Source: Struthio camelus
Taxonomy: Eukaryota > Chordata > Aves > Struthioniformes > Struthionidae
Direction: 5' to 3'
DNA length: 64,000 bases
Assembly (NCBI RefSeq): GCF_040807025.1
Contig: NC_090967.1
Coordinates: forward strand, 3,036,001-3,100,000
Shown piece after piece: positions 29,455-55,900 of the stretch. Position 1 is the stretch's first letter, and each line of letters opens with the position of its first letter. The notes below the pieces were generated by a model, which ran no database searches, had not been told where the DNA came from, and saw only the letters and a list, made by a program, of their open reading frames with translations. The position numbers and the translations under genes were made by a program.

Positions 29455-30444
29455 CTGCCAAGGAGGTGGATGGGGAGAGATGAGACAAGGGGTGAATACA
29501 GAGATCAAGGCACCCCTATTAATCCTCCCCCACCCCAAAACACATCCCCTCAGGAAAAGGGATCACGAAATGCCCTTTGATCACAGCACAGCACAGGGAA
29601 ACAGGGAGCTTCTGCCAAGGCTGAGCTCCAGGACATCCCCCCGCCGCGTGACAGACAAGGACTAGACAGCAGTGACAAAAGCCCTGTGGGACCTCGGCAG
29701 GGGCCAATGGAAACCACTCCAGGACAGTGCAAGCCCGGGCCCTTCCCGTAGCGGGATCAAGCATGCTTGGCTTTAAGGAGTGAAAACACGTCTGTTTGCA
29801 AGCCAGCCCCAAAGGGCCCAGGATATAAATGCCAAGTGAGGCCATCTGGGTGCAGAGCGTGGGCTGGTGACTCCCAGCCACGGCTTCCGGCTCAGGGATC
29901 AGCCCTCAAGCCCGGCCAAAGGGGAAAGGCAAAAGCAAGAGCTCATCCCACCACACTTGTCCCACTCCACATCCCCCTTCCATGCCATCACCTGGAGGCA
30001 CTGCCTCTGTAGAGGGGGCAAAAGCCTTAGAAATTGCCCTTGGGAGAGAGAGAGGGGTCCCAGGAACCATCTGGACTTGTGATACCCAACAAGGGGCCAC
30101 TTGGACAGCCCTGAGGTCGACAAGCAAAGATGTTGGGACAGGACGGCCAGGAGGATGCCACCAGGGGGTGTGGGGTGCAGACATGATGTGACCCTTGGAA
30201 CAGGGCACAGTGACCCTGGGGAAGGTTGCTGATCCCCCAGAGGGGACCAAGTGCAAAGCAGGAAGATCCCGATGGGCACCTTCAGGCCTGCCATGGGAGA
30301 TAGGTCCACAAGGTCCCATTTTTTGCCATAACCCCTTGTTGCAGCCCCCTGTTGCCACCAGGGCTGGGTCCCAGATGGAGCTGGTCTGGGCACTGCCCCT
30401 CCAAAGTTGACCTTGTCCCAATCCTCTTTTCCCAGGCCACTCAC

Positions 30445-30624
30445 TTGGGGAAGGCATCAAAGCAGTAGGTCTTCTTGGTCTCAGGGAAGGCAACTCTCAT
30501 GCCAGAGGTGAGCGGGGAGTGGAGCACAATAGCTGCACACTCGTAGCGGGAGGCTAAATCCACTGTGGGCACTGTGCCTATGCTTTGTCCATACAAAATT
30601 ATATTCTCCGGGCTGATCCCATAC
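30445..30624 (-). CDS. ABHD17A: ABHD17A coding exon 3 (nucleophile exon)
   Basis: Residues 171-229 with split codons at both ends. The acceptor is TTCCAG|GTATGG and the donor CCCAA|GTGAGT. It holds the nucleophile elbow GQSIG with Ser184 at its centre, then [20 protein letters not shown] and [18 protein letters not shown], nearly identical to mammalian ABHD17A. Confidence 0.97.
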
Positions 30625-32010
30625 CTGGAAGAAGAGACAAGAGGGCAGGTCAATGCGCGAGCACTGAGTAGCAGTGTCACCCTGCTCTGGCCAAAACGTA
30701 CCACAGAGAATGAGCCGCACAGGAGGGTGGTCCAGTCAGACAGGTCCAAACTCTGGCACTGAGCTGTACTGGGACAGGGCTACAGCATCGCTCAAAGACG
30801 AGTCCAAACCAGTTGCCCTGGATCCTGGCCTGTCTGCTAATGCTGGAGCAATTAGGGCTAATTGAGCCTTGCCCACACACCTGCTGCACATGGCTCCCTC
30901 AAACACAGTGCTGCCCTGGGGAGCGGGAATGGGGAAAGCGGGCCAAATTGCGAGATGAGTAGGGAGTCAGGCCTCACCCTCACAAGGAGTAGACTGATAG
31001 GTAGGCTTGCAGACCCCTGGGTGCTGCCCAGTGCCAGCCACGCACCCCACGTGCCTCCAGACGGGAGCCTCGCAGGGTTGATGCTGGTTACTGGGGCCTA
31101 CTGCAAGCTGGACTTGGCTCAGGCCAGGGCAGAGGAGGGAGAGCACATCACCTGCAGGAGGCACGGAGCTGAGCACAGAAGGGAAGAGCCTGGGCAAGAG
31201 GGGGGCCACACACACTTGCACCAGTGCTGGGGACCACCACATGCCCTTGACCTGGCAGTCTGAACTCCCCAGCCCAGACACAGCCCCATCCCTATCCGGA
31301 TCCCTGATGTGAGCAGACCCCCTTTACCCCAGGCCTGCGGAAAGCCTCACTGGTGCCGTGAGCTGCCTGGGGGCACACGTCCTCCCAAGGCTTGAGCCAC
31401 GACCCAGAGCGGGGCTCTGCCCCCCAGCAGCTCTTCCTGGAGCGGCTAGCTCTCCCCCACCCAGCATCCCCACATGTCCCGGTCCCCCCGAGTCCTGCAG
31501 GGCTTTCCGGCCACCCCTTCCTGTTAACAAGCGGCCCGGGCCCCTCTCTGGGAGATTTCCTGTTTTCCAGAGTGCCGGCCTCCAGGGTTTTCCTGGCGAC
31601 AGGCGTACACAGCCTCCCTTCCCCCACGTCTCTCTACTCCTAAGGCTCCCGCGGGGGCACACGGCTCCCAGAGGGGCCTGGGCAGAGCCACAAAGACTGA
31701 AAGCAATCGCACACCACACAAACATACCACACACCTCCACACGTGCGCCAGGGACACCTTAGTGACAGACAGCCATCACGCACCACCCACGCACACTCTG
31801 AGGACAGAGAACGTACGTGCTGGAGACACACCACACAAACACACGCTGTGTACTACACCCACATCTCCTGGGGCCGGAGATACAACTGCTGACTTGTGCT
31901 GCCTCTCAAGCCAGCCCCACAGGGCTGCTGCCGCCCCTAGCCTCCACCTGCCCGGGCAGAGCAACAGTTCCCGCTCTGTCCTGCCCTCCTCAGCCCAGCG
32001 CTTGACTCAC
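30625..32010 (-). other. ABHD17A: ABHD17A intron between coding exons 2 and 3
   Basis: A 1.4-kb intron with consensus GTGAGT donor and TTCTTCCAG acceptor. The part near 31695-31860 is CA-rich. No other gene is visible. The neighbouring introns 29455-30444 and 32206-35944 are likewise free of recognisable features. Confidence 0.85.
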
Positions 32011-32205
32011 CGCGTCCGCAGCGCCTGCCAAGCAGCGTCGATGTCGGAGTAGAGGTTCTTCTCCGAGGGCTTGCCCGTGCTCACGCCATAGCCTGAGTAG
32101 TCGTAGGAGAAGATGTTGCAGTTGATGCGTGTGCCCAGCCCTATGTAGAAACTGCTCATCTGCCCCAGGTCCACGGCGTTGCCGTGGGAGAAGAGCACTG
32201 TGAAC
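32011..32205 (-). CDS. ABHD17A: ABHD17A coding exon 2
   Basis: Residues 106-169 with split codons at both ends. The acceptor is CCCTGCAG|GTTCACAG and the donor ACGCG|GTGAGT. It contains LFSHGNAVD, the HG oxyanion-loop motif of the alpha/beta hydrolase fold, followed by SYDYSGYG and the helix [11 protein letters not shown]. All are diagnostic for the ABHD17 family. Confidence 0.97.
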
Positions 32206-35200
32206 CTGCAGGGAAGAGATGCACACGGTGGGGTTAATCAAGGACTCTGCCAAGGCATCACGTCGCTGCCCAGCCCTGGGGAGCAAGCTGGGGCGAGCAG
32301 CGCGCAGCTCAGGGACCCAACGTGCCCGGGCAGGGCTAGGCCAGGCCAGGATGAGTGCCTGGACAGGACAGCAGGGCAGCAGCAGCCTGGGATGTCCTCT
32401 TCGGAGACCGAAAACCAAACCCCAGCACACAAAGGGCCAACACACCTCTATCCACCAAAGAGGGTCCTTGCAACACCCGGGGCTAGCCCCAGGGATGCCA
32501 AGACAATCCTTACCACATGGAGCCCCCCCTCCCCCAAATGTCATCCACTGGCTAGAAGACACTCCCTGCTCTCCCCTGCTTGCCTCCTCTAACAGGCCCT
32601 GACTTTTTCCTTTCCTGGGGACCAACCCTCACCATTCTTATAGCAGAGGACGGCTAACAGGAAACCCTGCGCAAGGGGGGCTAAGCAGGGTCCTCCTTCG
32701 GGAAGCCAGGCCACAGCAGGGTTATCAAAGTCAGGAGCTCACTACCAGTAGAAACAGAGGCAGCTGAAAGGCAGGCTTATTCTGTTTAAGTTTTTGAGGC
32801 TATTTTTGGTAGAAAGCTCAGGATTTGGGGCCATTTGCCCAATGGGGATTTTCAGTAAAAATTCTGACAGTGAATTTTTTGCTCTCCTGTGTCTGGCAAG
32901 ACGCCAGACACTGGGAGAAGTGAATTGTGGGAACAACAAGACAAGAAATTTCCACCATAAGGGGAAAAAAAACAATTTAATCATGAAAATTAACATGAAT
33001 AACACTCTTAAAGCTTAGCTCCCTTTTGCCAGAGGAAGGGAACAGGACCCGCTCCCTGCTGAGCCCCTGCAGTTGCCATGAGATGTCTGCAGAGAGGTCA
33101 GATGTCCCAGCTGGGACGCCCTGCCGTTGCCAGTGGCCACAGCATTGCCAGGTGGCTATGTGCTTCGGTTTCTTACAGTAACCCCGTCATGATTGCCGGT
33201 CAGAGGTAGCCCAAGAAGGCACTGCGCGGGAACAAGGTACCTGGATGATGCTGGCAGGCTCAGGGAAGAGAGCAGGGGGGGGTGAATTTACACAACAGCA
33301 GGGAGGAAAGCGGGATGAGGGCAGGGCATCCCAAAAGCTGTATCAAAGGCTTCTCTCCTGCCTTTTGATAAAGCAAAAATAATGAACTCCAGTTTTGCTT
33401 TGCATCTTCCGCCATGCCAATGGCCAGGGCACTTGGGGGAATCCAAGCCCTTCATCTAGGAGCTGAGAGTCAAAAATACTTTAAACTGAGCTAAATCATG
33501 TTGACAGAGGGCTTGGAGACCCCCAATAACCAGGCATTTTCGTCATTCAGGCCCATGTGTGGAGGCTTCCACCCCAACCCCAGAGCAGTGGTTACTATGG
33601 GTCACCAGCTCCCACAAAACCTCCCCCATGGAAACAGATCCAGCCGAGTGGGGAGGGGGAAAGGGGCAGGGAAGGAAGCTAGGGGCAAGGACATGTTGAG
33701 GAAACCCCACAAAATGCAGGTCACGGAGGCACCTGGATGGATCCCAGAGGGGTCCTGGACAGCCAGGTGCTAGGGAAGCCACTGGCTGTTAAAGGGCCCC
33801 GCTGGACAGACAGCACAGCCACGGAGGAGACGCTTCCTGGAGCAGGAAGGCAGTGGCAGGGAGGACAGATCGCAGCCACCAGGCAAGTGAAACTAGATGC
33901 CCCAGGGCTTGGGAGAGCCGGATCTCCCCCAGCCCAGGCCCTTCTTTCCAACCCTGCAGCTTGTGTGTAAGCCACCATTTCCGTGGGCAGACTGGGATGG
34001 GGGCCAGCACTGAGCCTCGCAGCTGCGGGGCTGCAGGCAGGCGGATGTGCACATAGAGCAATCTCGTCGCCGGTTTCCTCTCTCCAGGGACCCGCGACAA
34101 ACGCGTCAGGGAGCGGGGGCTGGAGCAGACACCCCTATCGGGTGGCCTCTGGATGCCTCCTATAACAAATGGATGTCTCCAGACCCCTGCGAGGTAACGG
34201 TCCCGCCTTGCCTGCCTGTCCCACCTCTGCCCAGTGGCCTCGGAGCCCTTGGCAAGCAGAGGGGAGATACCCAAACAAGCGCCATTTCTGGGCTGCAAGA
34301 CAGCGGCTGTATCACCTCACCTGGAGGTCTCTACGTTCATCCTTGGGGGACCCATTTGCTCCAGGAGATGGGAAGATACCCATGCTTGGAGTCAGCCAGG
34401 GTGCTGTGACCTTTGGAAAACTGAAGCCAGCAAAGGTAGCTCCAATCTGACCTCTTGCCACACCTCAGCCTCCCAAGGGCAGCTGTAACTCTGCTGACGC
34501 CACAAGGACACCCACCTAATCGCTGGCCCAGCCCCGGCTCACTTTGCTCCCAAGACGCCCGCCCCAGGCCCCAAGCAGAAAGGAACAAACGTACACAGGC
34601 CGTGGTGCCAAGGGCAGCCGCGTGGGGCCTCCCAGCTGTGCCGTCGGCTTAGGGAGCAGCTGCTGAGTTCCCTCACGTCCCCACGCCAGCTCCTCGTGCC
34701 CAGCCCAGCCACCAGCAGGTGGGGTGCAGACAGCCGTGAGAGGGTCTCCATCCCACACCCCAGCTACCCCTCTCCAGCTGTCCCAGCAGATCCCAGGAAG
34801 CTGCCACAAATTCCTGGAGGCTCTGGGCAATGCATCTCGCTCTCCTTCCTAAAAGGAGACGTGTTTCCCTAGAAAAGGGCCAGCCCAAGACCCTCAGGCA
34901 CAAAGCCCGGTGCCACAGGACACCAAGCTCAGCACAAGTCTTGGAGGCTGCTGCAATGGCACAGAACAAAGGGCCACTGCGTAGCACCAGCTGGGCAGTA
35001 GCTCCAGGGCAGAACAGACACAGGGGCTGCTGTTCAGCCATCACAAATGGCTGCTTGCCAGGTGCAGAGGGTTCATGACATTGGTTAAATACCCGTGACT
35101 CCTTCCACAATAGATCAAATGCAAATCAAGTTCTTCTTGTTTTATGGTCACAGGAACCATCATGCCTGGGGGGTGACCTACAGCAGGCTGAACCTAAAGT

Positions 35201-35944
35201 CCTCCCAGTTTTCACTCCTATCACTCTGCTCCTCAAGAAATCAAGGCAAGTCAGCCAAAACAGGCAAACATGGTTCACTCCAAGGTTCATGGGCTTTTCT
35301 CCTTGGCTGTACGGACTCTAGCCTGTCCATGCTGTTACTGCTGCAGAGCCCCAGCACCTGAAGGGGTCAGCATGGGAGGGACCAGACAATCCAAGCTTGG
35401 CACATCAGCAGCAGGCCCGACAGCAACGCGGCACCCAGCAGGGCTGGGGGGACAAGGGGACAGCAAGGGGGCTGCACAGACTCTCCCCTGAAAGCCTCAC
35501 ACACGAGCTCGCACAACAATCGGAGCGTTACGTCACAAGCATGACATCAGAGGGACATTCCAGGACGGTGGAGGGAACCCTGGTGTCCAGAGAGGGAAGG
35601 CCAAAGTCCCTAGCCTTCAGCTTCGCCTTGACTTCCTCCCTCTCCCTGTTTAATCCCATTCCCAACGCCAGCCACAAACCAAACAGCTTCTGACAGCTGG
35701 GCCCGGCAGTCAGTGCTCACCCGCGCCACAGGATGCCTCTAAATTCCCATGATGGGGCCAGCTCCTTCAGCAAGGCACCGGATTTAGTGTAGGGTCAGGC
35801 CAGGGCAGGGAGGTAGCAATCAGCTGAAGTGAAGGAGGGGGCAGGATGGCACCATGCCCAGGGGCGGGGATGCTGTGCTAAACCCCAGGCAGCTGGCATC
35901 AAACCCCTGGCAGTGCCAGGCTGCCACATCCACCCATGACTTAC

Positions 35945-36258
35945 CTGGCGCCTGGCACACAACGGACGTACATGCAACCGACGCGATTCCCTCGGCTGCT
36001 CTTGGTGACAAACACCTCGATGTTGTCCAGCTCCCGCTGGGTGTACTGGAAATCCGCCCGGTCCGTCAAATGCAGCTTCCAGCGTCCCACAGCACCTCCT
36101 CGCAGGGAGCCAGTGCTGGTGCTGCCCGCGGACTCGGGCTCAGGGACCATGGCGTACGTGGGCTCCGGGGGTAGGAAGGCCAGTTTGGCCGCAATACGAC
36201 TGGGGCAGGGCGGGCAGCAAAAGAGGCAGCAGAGCTGGCTGACTGACAGCCCGTTCAT
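35945..36258 (-). CDS. ABHD17A: ABHD17A first coding exon (palmitoylation cluster)
   Basis: ABHD17A is a membrane-anchored serine hydrolase that removes palmitate from proteins such as N-Ras and PSD-95. This exon encodes residues 1-104 plus two bases. The N-terminus [21 protein letters not shown] has cysteines at 10, 11, 14, 15 and 18, the cluster palmitoylated in this family to hold the enzyme on the plasma membrane and endosomes. The whole protein is 304 aa (human 310 aa), and the triad is Ser184, Asp249, His278. The donor is CGCCAG|GTAAGT. I chose the ATG at 36258 by homology, but see the in-frame upstream ATG at 39145. The gene lies between REXO1 and a ZFAND gene, all on the minus strand. 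Confidence 0.97.
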
Positions 36259-36290: not shown

Positions 36291-39006
36291 CTGGAGCAAG
36301 CAAGGATCCAAATCAGACAGTCAGGGACCAGTGATGGCCTGGGAAAGCCTCTGTCCTCCACCTGCCCTCGTCACAGCTGCCAACAGAACAGGGCAGCCGG
36401 CAGTCTCCTGTGGACTGTGGCGGCTGCCGTCCGTCTGTCCATCAACAGCGGCGGTGGCCTGCAACCAGAAGGTCAGACAAACAATGAGGGAGGGGGAGGC
36501 TCCCCCCAAAGTTCACCACATGCACGCACCACAATTACAGCATATGTGATAAGCGTGACATCAGAGCATATGCCACAAGCGGGATGCACAGCCCAGCCCC
36601 ACTCAGAGAGCAGGGACAAACACCCCCTGCCCAAACACAGGCCGTCCCCAACGCAGGTTACATCTCCTCTCCTCAAACTTGGATGGTTCGTTGCTTCTTC
36701 CACTGGCAAACACACACACAACCCTCACCCTATGCCACACACAACACGCATAGCACATCTCCCTCCCAGGCAGAGGGGCACAACGTCTTCCCCCAACAGA
36801 CACACTGCTCCCTCCCCGCAGCGTGCGCCCGCCACCGAAAACCACACAGCCCACGCTCACGCTGAGCCCACACACGCACACCCACATGCTCCCCATCCAG
36901 AAAACCAAGCCCCAGCACTGTACAACACTTCACAGGCACGCACGCCCACACCCCCCCAAATCACACACCGCAACCCCCGCAGAGATTTGCAGCATCTTCA
37001 CGCAGGCCCACGCCAGGGAAGCGAGGACAGCGGGCGCAGGACTTCTCGCAGGCACGCACACTCCCAGGTGGTCGGTGCTACAAAGGAAACGGCACCCCGA
37101 CGTCCCCCCACAAACGCCGGCAGAGGCTGGCCCACATGCTCGCAGCTAGAATGCAAACCCCCAAAAAAAGCAAGAGAGGGGGAAGGGGGGAAAAAAAAAG
37201 CAACTATTTTCTGCAAGTTCGGGCACAGACTCGCTGTTGAGGAATGTCAAACCAGCCCACACCCCCAGGAATTCACTCCATCTGCTTCTGAAGGGCTGGG
37301 AAAGAAGAGGAAAGGGTGGAGGGAGAGAGGCCTGCCCATCCAGCCAGAAGGGGAAGGCATGCATGGAAATATTTCTCTCCAGAATAAATGGATTCCCCTC
37401 CCGCCCCTGGACACGCACACGTGCCCCGGCATGGCCGTAGTCCCCCCTCTTTGGAGGTGAATTCGGGTCTCCTTCAGGCCAGTGAGAATCCGCGGTGGCC
37501 GATGTGACCCAGAGCCACGAGGGTGGCATCCTGGACATGCCAGCTCTGGGATCCTCCTAGCATAACCGGCTGCTCACCCCAAAGTGCCAGTGGAGCAGGG
37601 GGATGCACGCATCCACACACCCGCGGGCACTACAGTACCCACAACAGGCAACGGCTGCGAGGCAGGTCACACACCTGCCTGCAGGGACACGTATGGTGTG
37701 TCAGTACAGGCATGCAGAAACACATGGCTGTAGGCAGCACTGCAGAGCACACACACCGTGTGTCACACATGCACCTGGCAAATCCCGAGCCCCGGTGTCA
37801 TTTTGGGGACACACACCACACAGGAAGCCCCCACCACTGGGGCTGGCACGCACCTCCGGGCGCTCGGGCCACCCGCGGGGCCGAGTCCTCTGCCTTCAGG
37901 CCCACACTGACCCCACACCCCAGACCCACCAGCACACCAGGTTGCACGTCCAGACCCACATACACACTCACCCCATTGCGTGTGTCCATACACACACATA
38001 CAGACCCCAGCCCCACATACCTCACTGATGGGGGTGTCCAGACCCCCTCACACACTGAGCCAGACCCACACACACACAAACCCACCCCATAAAGACCCCC
38101 TCCCCAGCCCCACGCATCCCAGTGATGGGGGCATCCAGGCCCCCTCACGCACTAACCCCAGGCCCAGAACGTGAGTCCAGGTCTGGGTCCGGGTCCAGGC
38201 GCCTCCCCAACCTCCACAGACTAACCCGAGCACCACACTGACCTCCCAGCCCACGAGCACCCCACCGATGGGGGTGTCCAGCCCCCCCCCCCCACTGTCC
38301 CCAGGCCCATAAGCCCCACCGGTGGGGTTGTCCAGCCCCCCTTCACTGTCCCCAGGCCCATAAGCCCCACCGGTGGGGTTGTCCAGCCCCCCTCCCCACA
38401 GTCCCCAGCCCCATAAGCCCCACAAGCCCCACAGACGAGGGCTGTCCAGACCCCCTCCCCACACTGTCCCCAGCCCCATAAGCCCCGACGATGGGGGTGT
38501 CCAGCCCCCCTCCCCACAGTCCCCAGCCCCATAAGCCCCACAGACGAGGGCTGTCCAGCCCCCCTCCCCACACCGTCCCCAGCCCCACAAGTCCCACCGG
38601 TGGGGTTGTCCAGCCCCCCTCCCCACACCGTCCTCAGCCCCACAAGTCCCACCGGTGGGGTTGTCCAGCCCCCCTCCCCACACTGTCCCCAGCCCCACAA
38701 GCCCCACCGGTGGGGGTTGTCCAGCCCCCCTCCCCACACCGTCCCCAGCCCCACAAGCCCCACCGGTGGGGTTGTCCAGCCCCCCTCCCCACACTGTCCC
38801 CAGCCCCACAAGCCCCACCGGTGGGGGTTGTCCAGCCCCCCTCCCCACACCGTCCCCAGCCCCACACACCCCACCGGTGGGGGTGCCCAGCCCCCCCCCC
38901 CACCGACCCAGCCCCACACGCAGAGCCTGGCTGCAGGCCCCCCATACAAACACGCACCGCTCCCCCCAGCCCCCCGGCACCTGCGTGCCCAGGCCCCCTC
39001 CATTAC
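36291..39006 (-). other. ABHD17A: ABHD17A intron 1
   Basis: A 2.7-kb intron between the 5'UTR exon and the first coding exon. Nearest the promoter it is filled by a ~55-bp minisatellite (38000-38915). Further in (36700-37100 and 37590-38080) it is strongly CA-rich without a fixed unit. No conserved coding sequence was seen; the long plus-strand frame across 36417-37460 is a by-product of this simple composition. Confidence 0.75.
38000..38915 (-). repeat. ~55-bp G-rich minisatellite in ABHD17A intron 1
   Basis: About twelve head-to-tail units of roughly 50-65 bases are clear from 38258 to 38915, with two more decayed units to the left near 38020 and 38120. Each unit contains a segment CCCCACCGGTGGGG (a perfect 14-base palindrome in the best copies), then TGTCCAGCCCCCCTCCCCACA and CCCCAGCCCCA. 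Copies are most alike near the promoter side and decay leftward. The transcribed-sense (minus) strand is the G-rich strand, with four or more closely spaced G-runs per unit. Confidence 0.95.
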
Positions 39007-43098: not shown

Positions 43099-43247
43099 TC
43101 ACAACTTTTGGATCTTCTCAGCTATGATGATGGGGTTCTCCTTACGGATTTTCTCAGCTGCTTCTGCCTTATAGTCGTACGGGCAGGCGTGCATGTCTGA
43201 GTACCGGTGAATGGCACAGAACAGGTTCCCACAGCGGCAGTCAAACC
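43099..43247 (-). CDS. ZFAND5-like: ZFAND5-like last coding exon (AN1 finger, C-terminus)
   Basis: Residues 159-206 with the first codon split. The acceptor is CCTTCAG|GGTTTGAC. It encodes [21 protein letters not shown], the second half of the AN1 zinc finger (Cys161, Cys163, Cys168, His171, His177, Cys179), then the family C-terminus [16 protein letters not shown] and AEKIQKL, followed by TGA at 43101-43099. Confidence 0.96.
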
Positions 43248-43875
43248 CTGAAGGGAGGAACGGCAAAGAGAGAAAGCCATGTTAATCACTGTCCAGCCAG
43301 ATGAAAAGGCAGCAGAGCCCGGACTGTTCCCTGCTAGGCCATGAAACCCCACTAAAGCAGAAAGAGAAGGTCAGACTAATAAGAGGGGCTGCTGGCTGGG
43401 ATGGGTGAAAGTGAGTCTTTGAGTGCGGGGGAAGATTTTAGGTAGCTCTTAGGTTTCCTCTGGCTTAGCTGCTCTCAGGAAAACTGTCATGAGTGCACGT
43501 GTTCTCTGGGGCAGGCCCAGCTGTCATAGCAACGGGCAAAGCTCTCGAGAGCAGTTGTTCTCCACATTCCCTAGAGATAAGGGAATGCGATTGCCAGAGA
43601 CAGCAGAGCAAGAGATTTCTAATCCGGACCAGGCTCCCCAGGCCCTGGCAGCAGCAAGCAGGTAGCCTGAGCTGGAGCTGAGCCCTCCAAGCCAGCCTGA
43701 CTCCCAAGGCATCACAACAACAGCGCTTAAAAAGCTGACCGACCAGCAATAAGGTGGCAGGCAGCAAAATCTTCACCTCATTAGTATCGCTTTCAAGCTT
43801 CTAGGGCCTCAGAAACGCATAATTTAATCACTTCACTTGAAGACAATGCTGTTGAGAAGTGCTACCATTCCACAA

Positions 43876-43935
43876 GACATGGGGAAACTGAGATACAGAG
43901 AAGGAAAGGGATTTGCTGCAGGACAGCAAGCTGGC
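43876..43935 (+). mobile_element. Possible MIR-like SINE remnant
   Basis: ATGGGGAAACTGAGATACAGAG followed by GGGATTTGCTGCAGGACAGCAAGCTGGC resembles the MIR 3' part. Short and diverged; in an intron of the ZFAND gene. Confidence 0.4.
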
Positions 43936-45154
43936 TCCCCGTGTCACCCCCAGTGGATCATGCTCCTTCCTATAACATCTACAGGCTGTAAAGGCTGCAA
44001 ACACATTGCTGCGAGGTGCCAATTTACCTGTCTGGGAAAACCTATCTTATCCTAAATTGTCCGACCTCATGGGAGTTGTTTGCAAGTTGATTCCTAAACG
44101 AGGGGAGATTTTTCACTTTAAGCTCTTAAGAGCCAACCATCAAAGAAAAACCTCCTCCCTACAGAGCCAAAGGCTAGGTGCAGAGAATCCTGCCTTCCCT
44201 ACCATTCCAGGCTTATCAACCCGTGTTTACTCTATGACAGTGCCCTAAAATCTCCAGGCAAGCTTGGTCTGCACAGTGCCATGCTGGACAAACCTTCTGG
44301 GCCAGACTCTGCCAAAGCAGCTTACATCGATGAAAACAGAAGTGCATGCGCTATTGCTGGCTGCTGAATGTGCTAAGTAGGCTAAAGAGGAGAGCGCTTT
44401 GCTAGAACAGTGTGACCTGCACAGCTCTAGGGTTAACTTTTTCCAGGGAAAAACTAAACGCTAGAGTCAATAATAGGGGGATGATGTTTTTATCAACAAA
44501 ACACAGCCAAGTTAACTGCTTCATGAATTTCCTTTCCAGGGCCGCTTTTCCCATTGATACCAGTCACCTGACACACTATCTCATCACCTCTCACTTTTCA
44601 GCTCTACAAGCTTAACACCGAGAGTCTGGTCCTGCTATCATAAAGTTAATGGCAGAAGTCAAGGAACTTTAACAAATGGAATAAGCCTTGGAGTGGGAAT
44701 TTCAGTTTTAGTCTAACTTAGTTCAGGACCCCATTATGAAAGTTTTACCACTGACTTCCACAGGAGCAGAATTAGATCAACAGTGTGTTCACTGCTGCCT
44801 TTGCGTCTACAAACACCTTTTGCCAGGCAGCAGAACTAACCCTAGAGGCACTGCTCCATCCCATGCTGCAATTTTGAATACAAGGGCTGGTAGGGAAACT
44901 GATGATGAGCATCAGATTCCCCATGCTACTGCCTCAGATAGGACTGTTCAAAGATCAGAGTCTCACCCCCCCACCTCCCTTGGAGCAGCACCTCTTGCAG
45001 AAGCTAGGTGTTCTTTGGAGGAGTACCTCCAAACACTGACCCATGCCAACCCTGTGAATCCAAGCAGTACCACAACACAAGGCGATCTACTTGCAGAGCT
45101 AGGAAACCAAACTACTTAGACTGCAAGCAATTTTCACCACAGTTAGGATCTTAC

Positions 45155-45265
45155 CAGTTAACCCTATCTTCTTCCGGCAGGTGAAGCAGCGGTTCTTTTT
45201 CTGTTTCATTTCTTCTGAAGCCATCTTGTCCTCGACTGTGTTCTGGGATATTTCAAAGAGGGTAC
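45155..45265 (-). CDS. ZFAND5-like: ZFAND5-like coding exon 4 (AN1 finger, first half)
   Basis: Residues 122-157 with split codons at both ends. The acceptor is GTTTCAG|GTACCC and the donor ACTG|GTAAGA. It ends KQKKNRCFTCRKKIGLT, giving the first AN1 cysteine pair (Cys147, Cys150). Human ZFAND5 and ZFAND6 read KKNRCFMCRKKVGLT here; the first half of this exon (EISQNTVEDKMASEE) is not conserved with either. Confidence 0.95.
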
Positions 45266-46986
45266 CTGAAACAGACACAAGAGCTCTGTTATCCTTCTTG
45301 ATAAGTTAAGCAACACATTAGTTTTATTCCAATAGCTGCCTGAGGCCCTGCTGATTCTGACTGAGTCCATGCCAGACAGACACCTGCGTGTGCGCATAGC
45401 AGCACACCGTCCTAGCCTCCAAAGTTAACAACCTGAAGACAGTACACAAAGGTATGAGATTTGCCTTGTTCCACAGGTAAAGATCTACACCTTGTAGAGC
45501 CTCATATTCTCTCCCTGTTTCAACTCCCTAAGTGCAAGGCTCAGAAGCACCAAGGAGTTAGTAAGGTTTAGCTAAGGCATATGTAAGGTAACGTGACGCT
45601 AAGTAGAACTACCTGGTGCTTCTCGTAGGTTAAGCACGCATCAGGATAGTCACTACAGCTTGGCTCTGCTGTACAGCAACTCAATTGCACATCTGAGCCT
45701 GGAGTTAATCTTTGTAAAGTTAACCCCTTGTAAGAAGGTACTAGTAATTATTTTTGTTGACTCTTATGTAAGTGTTCCTCATATGTAGGTCTCAGAATGC
45801 TTTACACAGATACTCATCACTGTCTCTAATCTACCAGAAGGAAAACCGAGCTTCGAAAGCCAGATTGTTAAAGGTCACTGATGCTTAGCAGGATTTCCAA
45901 CAGCACCTAAGCAGGTTAGAGAAGTCATCAGGAAAGAGGGGCCCCAACTGCCAGAAGATACACACCTGCAATGCACACCGCTCTGAAAATCAGGTTAAGC
46001 AGACTAACAGTCAGATGCAGAAACAGCTTTGTGGATCTGACCCTGAACAACTTTCTAGAAAACCCACAGGCGATCAGAAAAGAGCGGCAGGCTCTTCCAA
46101 GTCTCTCTTTCACCAGACAGTAACTCCCACCTGCCTGTCGTAAGTTGTCTCCTGGGCTTGCAGGCAAGTGGTTACTAAACCCAAATCTCACAGTCCAGTC
46201 AGTGACCAAAGCCTGCTTTTTAGCAACTAACAACCCTGTTTTTATAGGTTTGTACACAAGCAAACTATGAGTTACAACTAGGGGAGGGAGTCTCCAATGA
46301 AGTGTCACTTGGTTACAGCTCCACTGCAACACCAAGTCTCACGCTGCAACTGATCAAACGGAGGACGTGCCCTGCTGGACAACAACACCTGCACTCCTCT
46401 GTCACTCCATGGGATCCACTTTGCAAACAAAATGACAATGTTAACGCTACCCCTCCAAGGGGCAGGTATGCCTCAGACCACACAGGACAACAGGCAGGCC
46501 AGCAGCCGCCACACAAGCCACTTGGCACTGTCACAAACAGAGCTCGGGAATCCCGACTCCTCTCCCGAGACTACGCTGGATCCAGCTCGACTCATCCCTC
46601 GAGAGAGATGGCACAGAACTGCAGCACGTAGCCAACAACAGCCATGCAGCAGGCTGTGGGATGCTCTGGGCTTTCTGCCATGAACAAAGATAGGCGTCAT
46701 GGAAGATTATCCTCCTGCCAGATAGTCAAGGGCTGGCAGCCACTCAGTTCTCAGCCCACAAAGCAAACTCCGTTGGCCTGCCCTCAGGCAGAGCATTTTC
46801 TCTCCTCCCTATTTCAGAAACAGGCAAACTGTTTTCTCTTCAGCTGTCTTGCTAGATGCACCTTTATTGCTGGTAGGTAACGGCTCTCCCCTGGAGTTAC
46901 TGGCCAGCATTCTACTTACTGCTCAAACCAGACTTGCTACATTGGTGTCATTTCGACTCCTACAAAGGCTAAACCAATCAGTCTAC

Positions 46987-47102
46987 CTGATGAGGAAGAT
47001 GCTGATGAGGCTTCTTCTGTCTTAACGAATCCCGTCTCATCGCTGTTTTCTTCTCTAGATATGCTCATGGCCGTCATCTGATGGGTCACAGGAGTCTGAG
47101 CA
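46987..47102 (-). CDS. ZFAND5-like: ZFAND5-like coding exon 3 (linker)
   Basis: Residues 83-120 with split codons at both ends. The acceptor is GCTCCCAG|TGCTCAG and the donor TCATCAG|GTAGAC. It contains VTHQMTAMSISREENSD, clearly related to VTQQMTEMSISRED of ZFAND5 and absent from ZFAND6, so it links this gene to the ZFAND5 side of the family. The exon ends in a short serine run. Confidence 0.93.
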
Positions 47103-47841
47103 CTGGGAGCATTTGCAACAAACAAACAAACCATAGAGCAAACACAAGTATTTTCTTTTGGTAATTAGTTATGTGGGAGAGATCTTCAGCCCATAAGGTT
47201 AATTTCATTACACTCAGAGGGAGCTCAGCAGTACCACAGGCCAACTCCCCTGAGACTTGAGGTCACCGTTCTCTACAGACATAAATGGAATGAACTTGTA
47301 GTGATCTCAGCTTCCTTTTCTACCCACTGGTTTTCTACCAGTTACATCTCAAAGCCAAAGCAAAAGTTCAAAGCCCATGCAAGCAAATCCAGGACCAGAG
47401 GAACAGCTGTGAATTAGGACTTTAATGCAACGGTAGAGCTCAATGAGAATATCCTCCTTCCTATCAAACATGACAGGTCTCCAATTCTGCTCTTGTAGCT
47501 TCCAGACTAGATCATCACCAGGTGCTAGGTGATGTTAGGACCAGGTTGAAGCTGAACAGTTTAACACAGCTAACAAAACAGCACACCGACAAGGTGCAAT
47601 GGCCATAGGAGAACCAGGAAGCTACTTATTTTACTACAGATTTTAATTTACTGCTGACCCTTTGGTACCTAACTCCATGCAGCAGTCATCATAAGCAGCG
47701 ACATCTCAAGCCTCCAGTTAAACCAGGGTCACCGTGAACTCTGACCCATCCTGTTTTGCAGGACCCCTTCGCCAAACAAAGGACGAGAGCCTACCCGTTG
47801 TGTCCCAGGGCATTAAATCCACCCATAGACTATGCCCCTAC

Positions 47842-47935
47842 CTGGCTTTCACATCCTCAGGCGTGGAGTCTCCCTCTGCACACCGCCCTGCAATTGACTC
47901 CGAAGCCACAGGGCTGCTGTTGGGACCAGTGGCTG
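47842..47935 (-). CDS. ZFAND5-like: ZFAND5-like coding exon 2 (variable linker)
   Basis: Residues 52-81 with split codons at both ends. The acceptor is TGTTTCCTAG|CAGCC and the donor GCCAG|GTAGGG. Sequence NSSPVASESIAGRC shows only loose similarity to the serine-rich linker of ZFAND5/6. The phases (1 in, 2 out) fit the neighbouring exons exactly, which is the main support. Confidence 0.85.
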
Positions 47936-49407
47936 CTAGGAAACAAGATCGCAATCTTAGTGAACTCTTAGAAATGTTAGCAGGTTCCTCAGCTGCTTGA
48001 CAGCCATGACAAAAGCAGAACCGTCCACTTTCAGCAGCCTTTAACCTCCTGCTGCCTGCCAGAAGCTGGGAGGGTGCACCCAGGTTGGGATCACTCCCAA
48101 CTCCCCTATTCTTATACTGTCCCATTTGAACTTGCGCAGAGGCCACTACAGGGACAAGACATCAGGCTGCATGGACCTTAACATGCCCAGGTGCAGCTCT
48201 TCTTACGCTAGATCAGGAATGACTCCTTGTATCAGGACCAGAACATCCTTCTGAAACTAGCTGCTCATCTTCCTGAGAACTGAAGGCCTCGTTTACAAAA
48301 GGTCTGTCCAGTTCCTCAGGTTTTGATGGATGAGCGTTTACGCACAGGAGTTACATGCTGAGCACTGTGTGTTCCATTACTGTGTGTTCTTGAACATTTG
48401 GTAAAAATCTGACTTCCGTCACCCCTGACACCTCTGTTCTTTGACTCCTCTTCTGTTTCTCAGCATCACAAAGCAAACTGCACATCAGCATAAATGTTCT
48501 CCTATCTGTATAAATAAAGGCACTGCAGGTACCAATATACCTTGAATCCAATGTTACTTTGCAACTCCTCCAAGGTATAAAGACCAGATCCACAGCTGCT
48601 GAAAAGCACTGGCTTCAATAGAAATATGTTGTTTTATGGCAGCTGGGGATCTAAGTCAGGATCTTTAGAAAAACCCTTTGTGATTAATCCTTTGTCAGGA
48701 AGAGCTGTGTTCCTAACGTACATTTTGAGTGAGTAATTCAAGCAAAGCCATTACTATGCTCAGGAGCAAAACCATGGAAGATCTCTAGAAGGCATTTCTC
48801 AATGTCTGTACACCGGGCAGCTGCACAGACTCTCAACAAGAGAAAATCCTGCTAATGATGGAAAGAGCATCCTTTCTGTGTACACAGCTGATTCTCAGTT
48901 CAGTGATGTGTCGACTATGTTTAGCTGCAAAACCCAAACCTTTTATTTCATTGCTTTTGCTTGTCAACTCTGTTAAGATGAGAAAATTATCCCAACCCTA
49001 AGGGCCAAATTCTTCTCAAGCAAAATTTCACTAATTTGGAAAGCTTTCTCACGGTCTCCAGCAACACACAGCTCAGGGAGCAGGTAATAGCTAAAGATCT
49101 GGGCTGCTGTGAGAGCAAATGAAGTTTTACAGTTCACTGGAAGGTGCTGCCTGAGACGGTGCTTCACAAACAGCTGGGATTGCGAAGAATACAACTGACC
49201 CCCTTACAGGGAACAGAAGAGCTCCAAGGCTTGGGTATTTGATATAGAGGCTTGGGCCTACATGAAAAGGCAAAGACCTGAGTTTTCCAGAAGGGAGTAA
49301 ACCTATTGGCAGACAGTACCAGGTTCCATAAGCTCTGTCCTAGCTTCTTAACATAGTTTGTATCCAGGCATCCATTTAAAAGAGATTTGTTGGCCAAAAT
49401 CCTCTAC

Positions 49408-49558
49408 CTGGGGGGCTTATCCGGTCACTGCTTTGTTGCCTCTGTAGAAATTCCTTATAGCAAACAGAGCACATCCCATTGGTCCGAGGGCTGCCATAAA
49501 ATCCACAGCCTGTGGTACACAACAGAGGCACCTGGGTTTGATTTGTCTCCTGAGCCAT
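49408..49558 (-). CDS. ZFAND5-like: ZFAND5-like first coding exon (A20 finger)
   Basis: ZFAND5/6-type proteins are small cytosolic A20/AN1 zinc-finger proteins. In the family, A20 binds ubiquitin, ZFAND5 stimulates the 26S proteasome and modulates NF-kB signalling. This exon encodes residues 1-50: [20 protein letters not shown] is followed by [20 protein letters not shown]. The A20 finger cysteines 14, 18, 30 and 33 are intact. The full spliced protein is 206 aa, close to human ZFAND5 (213) and ZFAND6 (208). The start ATG at 49558 is the family start. The sequence is too divergent from human ZFAND5 (T9-V11 and the whole linker) to be a simple orthologue, and its position beside ABHD17A suggests a third paralogue. 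Confidence 0.95.
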
Positions 49559-49581
49559 CCTTTCTCCTCCAAGAAGCCAAG
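49559..49581 (-). other. ZFAND5-like: ZFAND5-like leader part of exon 3
   Basis: These 23 bases lie between the start codon and an acceptor TTTGTAG|CTTGGC that is preceded on the minus strand by a run of about 20 T, an unusually long pyrimidine tract. Confidence 0.8.
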
Positions 49582-51725
49582 CTACAAACAGGAATGAAAA
49601 AAAAAAAAAAAAAAAGACAGCTGTTACAGTCAGAGTAAGAGAAATAGTGCATTGTATACTGCAGCTGATCAGGAAGAAGCACAAAAGATCCCAAGAGAGT
49701 CCAGTTCCTGTACACACACAACAATGTGATCGACTCCCTTGAGCAAAAGATACAGGGCTCTTACGCAGCAACAGGACCTGGGTCCTAACACCCTTAACAA
49801 TCCAGAGTTCAGCTGCCTCTAAGTTGCCCAGAGACAATCTAAAAAGTCAACAGTAACTGGCTCTTGGGTACTCCCTCCTTACACAACAACGCTTACTAAA
49901 TTCACTGTAAAAGGTATGCATGTAAGACCTGAATGATCAGCTCTCAAATGTTTATAAGAAGTGCCATCGTATGAGTGACTAATGACTCCTGCAAACACTA
50001 AAACAAAGAATGCAGGTCAAACGTCCAGCGTCCAGGTTAATTAGTTACATTTCACGCTTAACAGCATTTGTTTCCATTTCAAGCCAGTTCTGCTTATTTG
50101 GTTCTCAGGAAAATTCTGTAAGTGAGGCAAAAAGAATTTACTGACTACCAAATGCAAATATTTCCTGAAATACGCTGGCAGATGAGGGGAATTAGACACT
50201 AATATATTTAGGCTAGAAACAAGAATAAGGTTTCTTCCCAGCAGTAAGGTGCGATTCTGGAACAGCTTCCCAAGGGGAACGGTGGGTATGGTGAACCTAG
50301 TTTTAAAATGAATCTCAGTAATTTCTCCCTGGATTATATGAAGTTGCCTACAAAACCAGGAAGTTGTCCCTTCCAGCCATACGTGTTGCTGTGGTATTTA
50401 CCCAGCCAAACTGCATTGAACCCCTTTAAATGAAAACCATAAGCAATAGCTCCCAGCAATAAAAAACACCAATTCAGATGGGGCAAAGAGATAAAAAAGC
50501 ATGTAATATAACTCATAGCAGGAATTACACACTATTCTGAGGGAGAAATCCAACTTCAAGGGTAGCACTGACCACAGCACCATTACTACAGCTTTATGCC
50601 AGACAAAAAGGAGAGCAGTACCCAGCCCTGAGTGACAGACACTATGGAAAAAGCCTTTTCAGCTGTGCAATCGAAGCTTTGCGACACGGATTTCCACCCT
50701 GCTTTCACTGATGTTTCCTCAGGAAGAGAAGCAGAGCCAGACCCCCCCCCCCCATCCTGGTCCCCTTTGTGTGAACAACTTGTGCTGCAGCCTGTTTAGC
50801 TCTGGAAGAGGATAAGGGAAGTGGGTGTCTGCAGGACAGCAGAGCAGGTGGCTCCAGCTCAGAAGTGGTCCTAGCACACACAGGGCTTTGCTACAGGAAG
50901 TCCCCGGTAGCGTTCCTCCTCTGAGCACGGCAGATGCACGAAGCATCCACAACGTGAGAGCTAACTCTACTGCTTTCTTTCACGCTCCTATAAAACGTGC
51001 TCCACAAAGGGAGTAAGACGACGGGAAAGTGGAATAATTGCCCTCCCCTGAGTTCTCCTGCGGGAAGGAAGGGAATCGGCTCTGGCTTATTCCTCCTTGC
51101 GCTCAGCTGGGTGATAACCAGTACTCACAGTACATGCTCTCAGTACTAACACCCGGAACATGGGGTTTCCTCGCAGAACCCAGACCAGCGTTCCTGTTCC
51201 CAGTACGACCGTCCTTCCGTCCAAAGCAAACAACTCCTCCTTCAGCCCAACCAGCCAAGAGAGTGCACTAGACTCTCTGCAAGAGCTTACACAACGGCTG
51301 TGGTAACACTGAGCCCATCTGGAAGGCTGAACCCCTGTGACTACAACAGGGTTGGTAACCGCTGTGGTTCGCAGCTACCTTCTCCAAAGTTGTTTTTAGT
51401 TTTGAGTGCCCTGAGAGACAGAAAGAGATGATTGCCACTACTTTTGAAGATTTTAGCTTTCACTTATAAAGCTCCCTTAGCAAGCAGCCTGCGGGAAACG
51501 AGCACACTTGGCTGCAGGAGCCAAGCAGCGCACAGCCTTGCTGCAAAAGCAGCTGAAATAAAGAACCTCGAGGGAGACGTAACCTGTTCCTCTTCTCGCT
51601 GCCCCCATCCCTCAGTCAGCACTTCTGCGCAGAGAGCGACAGCCTGGAGGAGACGCCGAGGCGCGGCTGGCACTGAGGGGGCACGCTGGGTGACATGACT
51701 TCTCAGAAAGGCACAGCGCACTCAC
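49582..51725 (-). other. ZFAND5-like: ZFAND5-like leader intron 2
   Basis: A 2.1-kb intron between the second 5'UTR exon and the first coding exon. It contains a CR1 LINE fragment at about 50205-50356 and a C-run near 50742-50753. No coding sequence was recognised. Confidence 0.7.
50205..50356 (+). mobile_element. CR1 LINE 3' fragment
   Basis: The stretch containing GGCTAGAAACAAGAATAAGG, TCTGGAACAGCTTCCCAAGG and TGCCTACAA matches in order the 3' terminal part of sauropsid CR1 retrotransposons. It is a truncated, diverged, non-coding copy. CR1 elements of this type dominate bird, turtle and crocodilian genomes, supporting the sauropsid assignment. Confidence 0.75.
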
Positions 51726-51953
51726 CAGCAGGAGCCCACCCTTGCGTCCGCTGCTCCGTGCTCCTCTCCGCCGCCGCTTCCCGGCCTATCCAGCCACACC
51801 TCCCAGCCGGAGGAGCGGAGCCTGCCCGGATCCCGGCGCCTGAGGAAGTCACCTTGCAGCTGAGCAGCTCCAGCTGCTTCCTGCCCAACGCCAACACCAA
51901 CACCAACGCCAACACCGAGCGGCCTCCTGCCGGAGCGGTGGCCAAAAGCCGAT
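51726..51953 (-). other. ZFAND5-like: ZFAND5-like 5'UTR exon 2
   Basis: The acceptor TTTCTCTTTCAG|ATCGGC and donor CTGCTG|GTGAGTGC bound a 228-base exon on the minus strand. It contains a hexanucleotide array GTTGGT/GTTGGC (about 51889-51916). A two-exon leader is inferred from the splice signals, not proven. Confidence 0.6.
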
Positions 51954-52373
51954 CTGAAAGAGAAAGAAGCAAAGCCAAAGTCACCCACAGGGCGCACAGA
52001 CATGGCTCCGCCAGGCCCTTCCCGGGGCGCGGAGGGGACCCGCTCCGAGGGGCGCAGAGCTGCTCCCCGCAGGCTGCGCTGGGCTCCGAGGCCCAGGGCG
52101 GCTGTGCGGGCGGAGGATGGCGCCCGGGGATGCCTGGCGCTCCCGGAGCCCCGGGAGGTAGCGGGGCAGGGCTGCTGCGGCGGGGGGGAAGGGGGGGAAC
52201 CTGCCGGTGCCTCAGTTTCCCCCACCGCCGCGGCGCCCCCCCGCCGTCGCCCCGCCCCCCCCGGCGCCCCCGCTCGCCGCCCGCGGGGAAAATCGAGGCC
52301 GCGGCTTCGCGGCCTACGCGGGGGGGGTCGGGAGGGCGGCGGGCCGGGCCCGGGGCCGCCGCCTGCACTCACC

Positions 52374-52450
52374 GGCCGGGGGCGGCGGGCCGCGCCGGGC
52401 CGGGCAGCTCAGGCGGGCGGCGGGCAGGGCGCGCGGCCGCGCAACATGGC
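52374..52450 (-). promoter_or_regulatory. ZFAND5-like: ZFAND5-like 5'UTR exon 1 and promoter
   Basis: The donor CCGGCCG|GTGAGTGCAGG at 52373/52372 closes a CpG-island first exon. A YY1-type CGCCATGTTG lies at 52441-52451 on the minus strand, and its ATG (52447) opens a 12-residue upstream frame that stops before the donor. The CpG island spans about 51730-52580. There is no TATA box. The exon's upper limit is approximate. Confidence 0.55.
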
Positions 52451-52584
52451 GCTGGCTGGCGGCGGGAGCGCGGCCCGCCGAGCGCCCTCCCCCGGGGAGG
52501 CGGCCGGCCCGGCCGGGGGGGCCCGCGCCCAGCGCCCGGGGCCGGCCGCGGGGGAGGGACTGGGCACAGGGGCTACAGGGGCTG

Positions 52585-53450
52585 GGGCACGGCCGGGCTC
52601 CAGCTAGAGGCGAGGGGGCTGGGAGCCCCCTCCCCCCGGCTTTAGGGGAGGGACCGGGACCCCCTGGCTGTAGGGACTGAGACCCCCCCCCACACACACA
52701 CACAGCTATAGGGGAGAGGCTGGGATCCAGCCTCAGCTATAGGGGCTGTGGCAGAGAGATTCCCTGGCTATAAGGGAGGGGGCTGGGACCCCCTGGCTGT
52801 AGGGGCTGGGGCACAGCTGCACTCCAGTTATAGGGGAGGGGGCTGGAGATCCCCCCCCACCGCTGCAATAGGGGCCTGAGACATAGTTGTACCATGGCTG
52901 TAGGGGAGGGGACTGGGACCTCCCCCGGGTTATAGGAGCTGGGGCACGACTGGGCTCTGGCTATAGGGGAGGGGGCTGGAGAACCCCTCCATAGGGGCCT
53001 GAGACATAGTTATACCATGGCTATAGGGGAAGGGTCTACCCCCCCCCCCCCGGTTATAGGAGCTGAGGCACGACTGGGCTCCGGCTATAGGGGAGGGGGC
53101 TGGGACGCAGCTAGACCCCAGCTATAGCGGGGTGCCCCCTGCATTTATAGGGGTTGGGACACAGTTGGACCGTGGCTACAGCAGAGTGCACTGGGAACCC
53201 CCTTCCGTATAGGAGCTGAAGCATGGCTGTGCCCCAGTTGTAGGGAGGGAGTCAGGAATGCATATCTCCAATGGCTATAGGGGTGGCAACACACCCTCAC
53301 CCCAGCTATAAGGGAGGGACTGGAAACCTGCACCTTCTCCCAGCTATAGGGGAGGGCATTGGGAACTGGCTCTCCTTTGGCTCTAGGGGCTGAGACCTCC
53401 CCAATGCCCAAATAGCTATAAGGGAGGGGGCCAGGACCGCAGAGCCCCGT
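52585..53450. repeat. CTATAGGGG minisatellite upstream of the ZFAND gene
   Basis: Units of about 28-35 bases, arranged mostly as 60-65-base dimers, repeat GGCTATAGGGGAGGGGGCTGGGACC and GGTTATAGGAGCTGGGGCACGACTGGGCT for about 0.85 kb. Roughly 25 copies of the CTATAGGGG-like core are present, more degenerate toward the right. The array starts about 140 bases upstream of the ZFAND first exon. G-runs are on the plus strand. Confidence 0.93.
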
Positions 53451-55900
53451 GGCCATCGCTGTCTGGGTTGACTGGGGACATCCAAGGGCAGCGCTGTGTG
53501 AGGCCTGCAGGTCACACAGGGGTGCCGGGAGGAGATGGAGCAAGACGTGTGCGGGTCTACCAGCACGCCGCTGCACAGACACAAATTTCCATTGCACGTG
53601 GAAGTATAAGGAGCAGAAACCCCCTCGAACGAGGTCTGCGCACCTGGACCAAAAGCAGCCCCGGAGCCAAGGAGCGGGGCCGAGGCCCCCCGCGCTCTCC
53701 CCGGCAGCAGGCTGCTATTGGCCGCGTCTCACGTCCCCCCCCCCCCCCCCCCCCGAGTTTGCCAGGCTTCGACTTCCAGCCGCCAGGTCTTGTTCTGCCT
53801 TTGCTGGCATGATTAAAGGGCCGCCGTGTGGGAGAGCTTCTCCCGCTGGAGTCGCTTGGAGACTGCAGCCCAGCCACTCCTTAAGTTTCCCTTTGATGAG
53901 CTAAATAGATCCGAGCTCTTTAAGTCTCAGGCTGGAAGGCAGGTTTTCCAGACTGCAAATCATTCCTGTGGCTCTTCTCTGAACCCTCGCCAATATTTTT
54001 TTTTTCAAAACCTTCCTCAGATGTTGTCAGGGGATGACACAATTCATTACGAGCCTGATTTATCTGTGAGCCTGTGTGTACCTGCTTCCTAGGCCCAAGC
54101 CTCCTCCGTGGGGTTACTTTTGTATCGGCAACTTCAAGGGTTGCTTTTGCAGGTTCCCCGGGGCAGATCTTGCTGCGTCCTGAGGCAGCTGCAAGCAAAA
54201 ACACCTCTGTAACGGGGCAGCATTGCTAGGGAGCAAGAGAGGAAAAGGTTGCCAGGGGCAGAGCTCGGATGAGCCGTGCAGTCAGCACTGATGGTTTTGG
54301 GGCAAGTAACTGGGAGCAAAAACCGTGAGAAGTCACCGTTAAGCTCTACTGTTGCTGCCCCACAGGCTGGTTGTCTCTCCACCTTCTCCATGGGCCCAGG
54401 GGCTAATAAAAAGTTTATGAGTTAGCCCTAACCCTCAGGGAGGCATAGCTGTAGAAAGCATGGATTGGATTTCTGCTGTTTTTTGGTTCACCAAACCAAA
54501 GCTTTTCTACTGAGATGTGCATGGGGCTCTGAACTCTTGGTGGGGGGCGATATTTTGCAGGGCTCTTTCCAGGCCTGCAGAGGCATCCGTGGGCACAGTT
54601 GGATTTATTTGCAGCTGTTGGCGTGGGAAATAACTCAAGCAGAGAGTGTGAGCAAATCGTTTTCCCCACCTTTTCACCTGCCTGTCCACACATTCTCACC
54701 AGTGTCTCTTGGGTGCACGTTTCCCTGTTTCTGCATAGAGCACAGCATGCACAAGGTCCCCGCTAGCGCCCTGCTGTGTCCCAGCGAGCCACCACAGAGC
54801 CTTGGGGGTTGAGGTGAGCCTGCAACAGCAACAAAAGCACTTCTGCCAACAGCATGAGCATGGATGGCCACAGGCCAGGTCCCCGCAGCGCTTCTTGCAG
54901 CTCTTAAGCCCAGTTTGGGCAGCACCCAGCTCTGTCAGCACCCTCCTCCAGGCACGCTGTGCCGTGAGGCTGGCTGGCAAGAAAGCACCCAATGGAGCGG
55001 CCCGAGCCCACCCAACTGCTCCGCACCCATCCTTCAGCAGCTCCTGGGCCACCACAGGGAAGGTGGCTCTGACAGAGGCCATGGCCACGGCCTGATCGCC
55101 ACCAGGTGGCACCAGGCCCCCACAGAAAGATGGGCACCCAAGCGTCTGTGCATCCACCCGGGCATCCATCGCTTGCTGTCAACCCTGTAGAGCAGAGTAG
55201 GTCCCTCTCTGGCACGGGATCCCCATGAGCTCCTGCACTGCTCTGCCTCGCTTGGCTAATGAGGATCATCTGGCTTGTGAGGATCCCTTGGGCCAGGACC
55301 AAACAGGTCCTGGGGCCTGTCGGCCACCAGCATTTGCTGTGCAGACCCAGATGAGAGTGCCTCTGACCCCCAGGTCCTGGGGAATCTCTGTGCCTCTGCC
55401 ACCACTGCATTTCTGCCCTGAGTCTCTTTTGCTTTATAAACTCCAGCGGGGCAGGAGGGGAGTCAGTCCAGCTTTCAAAGGTGCAGGAGCTGAGAGCAGT
55501 GGCTGGGCAGCTGAAGCACACAGGCTGCTCTGCAAACGTGGCCAGTCTACGGATGGTTACAAGGAGACCAGCAGCTCTGTGACTTAGCAGGCTGTGAGAT
55601 CCCTGCGTCTCCATCCTGCCTGTCATTGGGCGAACGGGCCACCCTCCTCAGCCTTGCAAGCAGCAAGCAACCCCCATGCCCCTGATGAACCAGTCCCCCA
55701 GAAAAGCCCAGCATGTCTAGATATCATCATCCTCCCAAAAAAGAAGCACTTGCCATCTCCCCTCCACCTCCTCCTCTCCACCATCCTTATCACTGCTTGG
55801 CTGCCACCGCAGCCCCACAGTGAGCACAAGCTCCAGGCTGGGGAGGCCGAGCACTAAAGGTGGGTCATTCCTGGGGCTGGGACCAGGGGGATAGCATGGA
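53451..55900. other. Intergenic, no gene recognised
   Basis: This stretch contains a ~19-base C-run at 53737-53755, the reversed CR1 piece at 53895-54050 and unremarkable GC-rich sequence. Open frames on both strands are unsupported. Confidence 0.55.
53895..54050 (-). mobile_element. CR1 LINE fragment, reverse orientation
   Basis: The plus strand carries GAGCTCTTTAAGTCTC, GGTTTTCCAGACTGCAAATC, TGTGGCTCTTCTCTGAACCC and CGCCAATATTTTT in the order found in the reverse complement of CR1 3' ends. It is a diverged, truncated, non-coding copy. Confidence 0.7.

Follow-up and report, generated by a model that had tools for sequence, protein, structure and literature searches.

A third ZFAND5/ZFAND6-type gene and a mir-204-family hairpin beside ABHD17A in the ostrich genome: probable survivors of the early vertebrate genome doublings

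In the ostrich (Struthio camelus), a 64,000-nucleotide stretch of contig NC_090967.1 (C26:3036001-3100000, hereafter the window) carries a gene for an A20/AN1 zinc-finger protein, to which we gave the working name ZFANDx, together with ABHD17A and a mir-204-family microRNA hairpin. C26 is 8.0 Mb long, and our genome searches covered 1.45 Gb in 262 contigs. The coding region of ZFANDx (43099-49558, minus strand) is an intact single open frame of 206 amino acids in five coding exons, bordered by AG acceptors and GTA donors, with intron phases 1, 2, 1, 1. Coding exon 1 (49408-49581, with the ATG at 49558) encodes the A20 finger, exons 2 (47842-47935, with phases as in ZFAND5 and ZFAND6) and 3 (46987-47102, including PVTHQMTAMSISREE) the linker, exon 4 (45155-45265) the start of the AN1 finger, and exon 5 (43099-43247) the remainder of AN1, the C-terminal tail and the stop codon. 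Two putative 5' non-coding exons on the same strand, judged from their splice signals, make a total of seven exons plausible: exon 2 (51726-51953), with good splice signals by reading, and exon 1 (about 52373-52450), with a donor site by reading and an outer end taken from an earlier sequence-only reading of this DNA. The latter lies in a G+C-rich stretch (G+C 0.686 in 52001-54000).

Downstream on the minus strand lies ABHD17A (29232-36258), with exon matches at 35938-36258, 32010-32210, 30438-30632 and 29232-29459, whose ends may overrun the exons. Its product is an alpha/beta hydrolase by Pfam, and we take ABHD17A to be the right gene name. Further along the same strand, a hairpin at 24559-24634 (mature arm 24598-24619) matches Rfam family RF00646 at 67.4 bits against a gathering cut-off of 48.4, the sole gathering-level Rfam match in the whole window, and has a predicted fold of -36.4 kcal/mol, computed without shuffled controls. 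The hairpin belongs to the mir-204 family by Rfam and by its mature arm, but it does not occupy the family's usual location in a TRPM1 or TRPM3 intron: none of 62 TRPM matches fell on C26 (probe of assumed sequence, 70 of 85 candidates scored), and a tblastn search for TRPM remnants in the window returned two rows, both from the reversed control. Some 0.9 kb before the hairpin, we also observed a TATAAAAGG box (25730-25722, minus strand) followed by a CCAG/GTGAGTAAG donor at about 25561; it is possible that these signals (25560-25730) belong to a host-free primary transcript of the hairpin.

Both zinc fingers of ZFANDx passed their Pfam cut-offs (zf-A20, 46.2 bits against 21.6; zf-AN1, 35.5 bits against 27.9), and all 12 zinc ligands listed in the sequence-only reading (C14, C18, C30, C33, C147, C150, C161, C163, C168, H171, H177 and C179) are invariant when ZFANDx is aligned to the ostrich ZFAND5 and ZFAND6. 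A genome-wide ZFAND search gave 12 matches. Five fell in the window gene, the two ZFAND5 genes (C41 and C40) and ZFAND6 (C12) received two each, and the last was an AN1-only match on C7. The three relatives on C41, C40 and C12, once rebuilt, had the same intron phases as ZFANDx, which thus has the fingers, ligands and exon-intron structure common to the ZFAND5/ZFAND6 subfamily. ZFANDx is identical to C41 ZFAND5 at 122 of 199 positions and to ZFAND6 at 108 of 197, while ZFAND5 and ZFAND6 agree at 116 of 202. Conservation is concentrated in the fingers, with 82% identity to both relatives in A20, 80% to ZFAND5 and 74% to ZFAND6 in AN1 plus tail, and 34% to ZFAND5 in the linker; third codon positions are 30-54% identical. 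The sequence-only reading had described a seven-exon minus-strand gene with intact fingers, next to ABHD17A and in the same orientation, with a linker like that of ZFAND5 and an N-terminal QVP like that of ZFAND6. We recovered the five coding exons with their 206-residue frame, the fingers, both likenesses in the alignment and the orientation (the nearest ABHD17A exon match is 6.8 kb downstream), leaving the two 5' exons as putative on splice signals only.

The neighbourhood of ZFANDx is repeated elsewhere in the genome. A search for ABHD17 gave 14 matches, with one gene each on C26, C41, C40 and C12; on C1, a match of 31% was judged to be a distant hydrolase. On three contigs, a ZFAND gene lies upstream of ABHD17 on the same strand, at 6.8 kb on C26, 116 kb on C41 and 247 kb on C12, and the chance of three such neighbourhoods under random placement is about 1e-11, a rough, after-the-fact estimate. 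The RF00646 genome search gave four matches, all above the cut-off, on C41, C40, C12 and C26. On C41, C40 and C12, the hairpin is flanked by exons matching residues 86-146 and 144-205 of the TRPM3 probe, which places each in the corresponding intron of a gene resembling TRPM3 or TRPM1. Hairpin identities are 51/70 between C26 and C41, 52/70 between C26 and C12, and 54/70 between C41 and C12. On the minus strand of C41 the order is ZFAND5, ABHD17B, TRPM3 with mir-204, and a KLF9-like gene; on C26 it is ZFANDx, ABHD17A, mir-204 and a REXO1-like gene. Two neighbour families, ABHD17 and mir-204, are thus duplicated alongside ZFAND on C26, C41 and C12, with mir-204 on C12 8 Mb away.

The fourth set of matches, on C40, appears to be a sex-linked counterpart of that on C41. 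ZFAND5 is Z-linked in songbirds (PMC7692361) and a W gene, ZFAND5W, is present in the collared flycatcher (PMC4468903), and for these reasons C41 was taken as Z and C40 as W. C40 at 3.08-4.90 Mb parallels C41 at 26.09-27.88 Mb, with matches to KLF9-like, TRPM3, mir-204, ABHD17B, ZFAND5 and TRPM6-like genes. If C40 is W, much of the Z block has been kept there. The synonymous divergence (dS) between the two ZFAND5 copies is about 0.1 (0.114 by NG86, 0.091 by YN00).

By contrast with that pair, the five paralogue pairs are saturated, and NG86 could compute no dS for them. We then compared the proteins in an unrooted tree without an outgroup, comprising ZFANDx, the two ostrich ZFAND5 copies, two ZFAND5 sequences from PDB, which we take to be mammalian, and ostrich and human ZFAND6, the last in letters that we assume to be correct. 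The two ostrich and two PDB ZFAND5 sequences group at 99.7/99 with ZFANDx outside, and ostrich ZFAND6 groups with the assumed human ZFAND6 sequence at 100/100. The tree is nearly a star, with branches of 0.36 for ZFANDx, 0.31 for ZFAND5 and 0.44 for ZFAND6; FastTree, on the same data, separates ZFAND5 from ZFANDx plus ZFAND6 at 0.999. Near-equal distances, saturated synonymous sites and repeated gene order suggest that the duplication giving rise to ZFANDx predates the bird-mammal split, with the PDB ZFAND5 sequences presumed mammalian and the human ZFAND6 letters presumed correct.

Very probably, the early vertebrate genome doublings (2R) copied an entire block, and ZFANDx is what survives of its third ZFAND copy, an ohnologue of both ZFAND5 and ZFAND6, as the sequence-only reading had proposed for the ABHD17-ZFAND pair; one outcome it had named as fatal, nesting in a bird-specific clade, was looked for and not seen, since the ZFAND5 clade and the ZFAND6 pair both exclude ZFANDx. 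The ancestral block would have held, on one strand, ZFAND, ABHD17, a TRPM gene with an intronic mir-204, and KLF. On C26, the ZFAND, ABHD17 (ABHD17A) and mir-204 copies survive within about 25 kb, neither a TRPM host nor a KLF copy turned up among the candidates scored, and the third mir-204 copy would be transcribed without a TRPM host. No ZFAND gene is known to us beside human ABHD17A at 19p13.3; together with a review table of mammalian ZFAND proteins described below, this is the basis for the loss in the human lineage that the sequence-only reading proposed, which may have occurred.

Several observations weigh against this interpretation. The complete same-strand order is present on C41 only, because ZFAND5 on C40 is inverted relative to ABHD17, and because on C12, where ZFAND6 and ABHD17C are close, TRPM1 with mir-204 and a KLF13-like gene lie more than 8 Mb off (10.34-10.64 versus 19.07-19.24 Mb). 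The window hairpin scores 67.4 bits against 99-100 bits for the other copies, and the same stretch has sub-threshold matches to mir-1258 (28.3 bits), to mir-204 on the other strand (24.2 bits) and to mir-4650 (23.1 bits). Absences are lower bounds in the RF00646 genome search, where 53 of 152,908 first-look candidates were scored, in the search with the TRPM3 probe, an assumed sequence with 70 of 85 candidates scored, and in the KLF search described next. An outgroup search with the three-protein alignment returned pattern matches from both collections (genome_contigs, 24; viral_contigs, 76), but not one of them coded for a relative. Human KLF16 sits between REXO1 and ABHD17A, and the sequence-only reading had counted KLF16 beside ABHD17A in its argument. 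The window contains no HTGE finger motif that would mark KLF16, and no KLF row of at least 80% fell on C26 among the matches listed (193 matches; 150 of 914 candidates scored), so this part of the earlier argument fails in the ostrich.

As to function, we lean slightly toward ZFANDx being a ubiquitin-binding proteasome helper that works as ZFAND5 does. ZFAND5 binds ubiquitin through its A20 finger and is seated on Rpt5 by AN1; a peptide of 19 residues from its C-terminus, four of them contact residues, stimulates the proteasome (PMC11799193). By analogy, the A20 finger of ZFANDx would hold substrate-linked ubiquitin, the flexible linker would allow a swing, and AN1 with the C-terminal tail would dock on the 26S proteasome and speed degradation. 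With the stimulating peptide taken as the last 19 residues, ZFANDx keeps 13/19 of the ZFAND5 tail; the six differences count against a common function, five of them being V/I, R/K or I/L swaps in classes assigned by reading. It is possible, though we think it doubtful, that ZFANDx is an ohnologue that acts instead like ZFAND6, in Pex5 export with Pex6. Its N-terminal TQVP resembles the SQVP of ZFAND6, with which the tail shares 14/19 residues; on the other side stand the closer match of AN1 plus tail to ZFAND5 (80% versus 74%, A20 being equal) and the linker motif MSISREE, common to ZFANDx and ZFAND5 only.

With regard to origin, a small-scale segmental duplication of the ZFAND-ABHD17-mir-204 block, before the bird-mammal split and outside genome doubling, seems unlikely. 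A tree without an outgroup or other lineages sets a lower age bound only, which leaves room for such an event. Nevertheless, the three ZFAND copies are about equally far apart, as are the three hairpins, and a 2R paralogon of TRPM1/3/6/7, published with four chromosomes, two of them TRPM-less, and with named neighbour families including CSNK1G, SEMA6 and LMN, takes in the regions of TRPM1 and TRPM3 (PMC13143021). C26 may be one of the two TRPM-less chromosomes, although chicken 28 and human 19 both go unnamed in the available text, a further point against a 2R origin. A recent bird- or reptile-specific duplication of ZFAND5 or ZFAND6 would suit the finding of ZFANDx in one genome, but it is very improbable: ZFAND5 evolves slowly (204/211 identities between the C41 copy and PDB 9bui, and 199/211 for the C40 copy), yet ZFANDx is identical to it at only 122/199, dS is not computable, and the support against nesting in ZFAND5 is strong; ZFANDx is therefore no recent duplicate. 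That ZFANDx is a processed copy or a decaying pseudogene can hardly be credited, given five coding exons in ZFAND5/6 phases (its introns exclude a retrocopy), no internal stop, canonical splice borders and conserved fingers.

An ohnologous origin of the C26 block also bears on the naming of chicken microRNAs. In chicken, gga-miR-204-2 lies on chr10 and gga-miR-211 at chr28:1784394-1784467 (PMC3496578), the copy in TRPM1 intron 5 is named mir-204-2 (PMC3675212), mir-204-2, KLF13 and TRPM1 are listed in one chromosome 10 region (PMC11050503), and a single mature sequence is given for all three chicken genes (PMC9876980). Because the TRPM1 copy is mir-204-2 on chr10 and the mature sequence is common to all three, the simplest reading is that the mir-211 of chr28 represents the third ohnologue; chicken chr28 would then correspond to C26, and gga-mir-211 is probably misnamed. 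Morini et al. (2026), with chicken among the genomes searched, state that no mir-204/211 duplicate survived 2R (PMC13143021). We consider it likely that this view is wrong, and that birds keep a 2R block copy with ZFAND and mir-204 from which the TRPM host is gone. Mir-204 is not mentioned in the main text of a study relating microRNAs to genome duplication (PMC8789304); the subgenome naming in the supplement of that study, or MirGeneDB, may already count a third mir-204 copy.

The first coding exon of a REXO1-like gene was located by reading at 17998-18187 on the minus strand; its 64 residues had no Pfam match, and its identity as REXO1 is presumed. No KLF9/13/16-type finger gene was seen between this exon and ABHD17A. 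A SCAMP match lies on C26 about 59 kb beyond ZFANDx, a position that fits the human 19p13.3 order. Two tandem arrays were also observed, one upstream of ABHD17A (38260-38918; 12 copies of a G+C-rich 55-base unit) and one at 52868-53103 (about two copies of a 124-base unit).

Eight mammalian ZFAND proteins appear in the table of a review, with A20 plus AN1 in ZFAND3, 5 and 6 (PMC11799193). Studies of proteasome activation by ZFAND5 count one close paralogue, ZFAND6. Our literature search returned nothing on ZFAND5 with ZFAND6 as paralogs, with ABHD17A, or as an ohnolog. The ZFAND-ABHD17-mir-204 block helps to fix the gene order in one 2R paralogon. If true, the third mir-204 copy would correct what was recently published on how TRPM and mir-204/211 evolved, and it would offer an uncomplicated example of a microRNA that began in an intron and outlived its host gene.

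Compared with known systems, ZFANDx is most like ZFAND5 (ZNF216), with which it shares the A20-linker-AN1 architecture, the 12 zinc ligands, phases 1, 2, 1, 1, the linker motif PVTxQMTxMSISREE and, for the C41 copy, a downstream ABHD17 gene on the same strand. It differs from ZFAND5 in overall sequence (61% identity), in the linker (34%), in its contig, and in the tail, where VVV is replaced by III, R by K and I by L. With ZFAND6 (AWP1), it shares the architecture, the phases, an ABHD17 neighbour (ABHD17C) and QVP near the N-terminus, whereas identity is 55% overall and 74% in AN1 plus tail, and ZFAND6 lacks the MSISRE motif. The window hairpin resembles mir-204/mir-211 in its RF00646 fold and in a 22-base mature arm identical to chicken miR-204-1, -204-2 and -211 (PMC9876980); the hosted copies, by contrast, have a TRPM host gene, and their hairpins are 51/70 and 52/70 identical to that of the window. 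Its probable orthologue is chicken gga-miR-211, a third mir-204-family locus of 74 bases against 76 in the window, which carries a name that in mammals belongs to the gene in the TRPM1 intron, whereas the chicken TRPM1-intron copy is mir-204-2.

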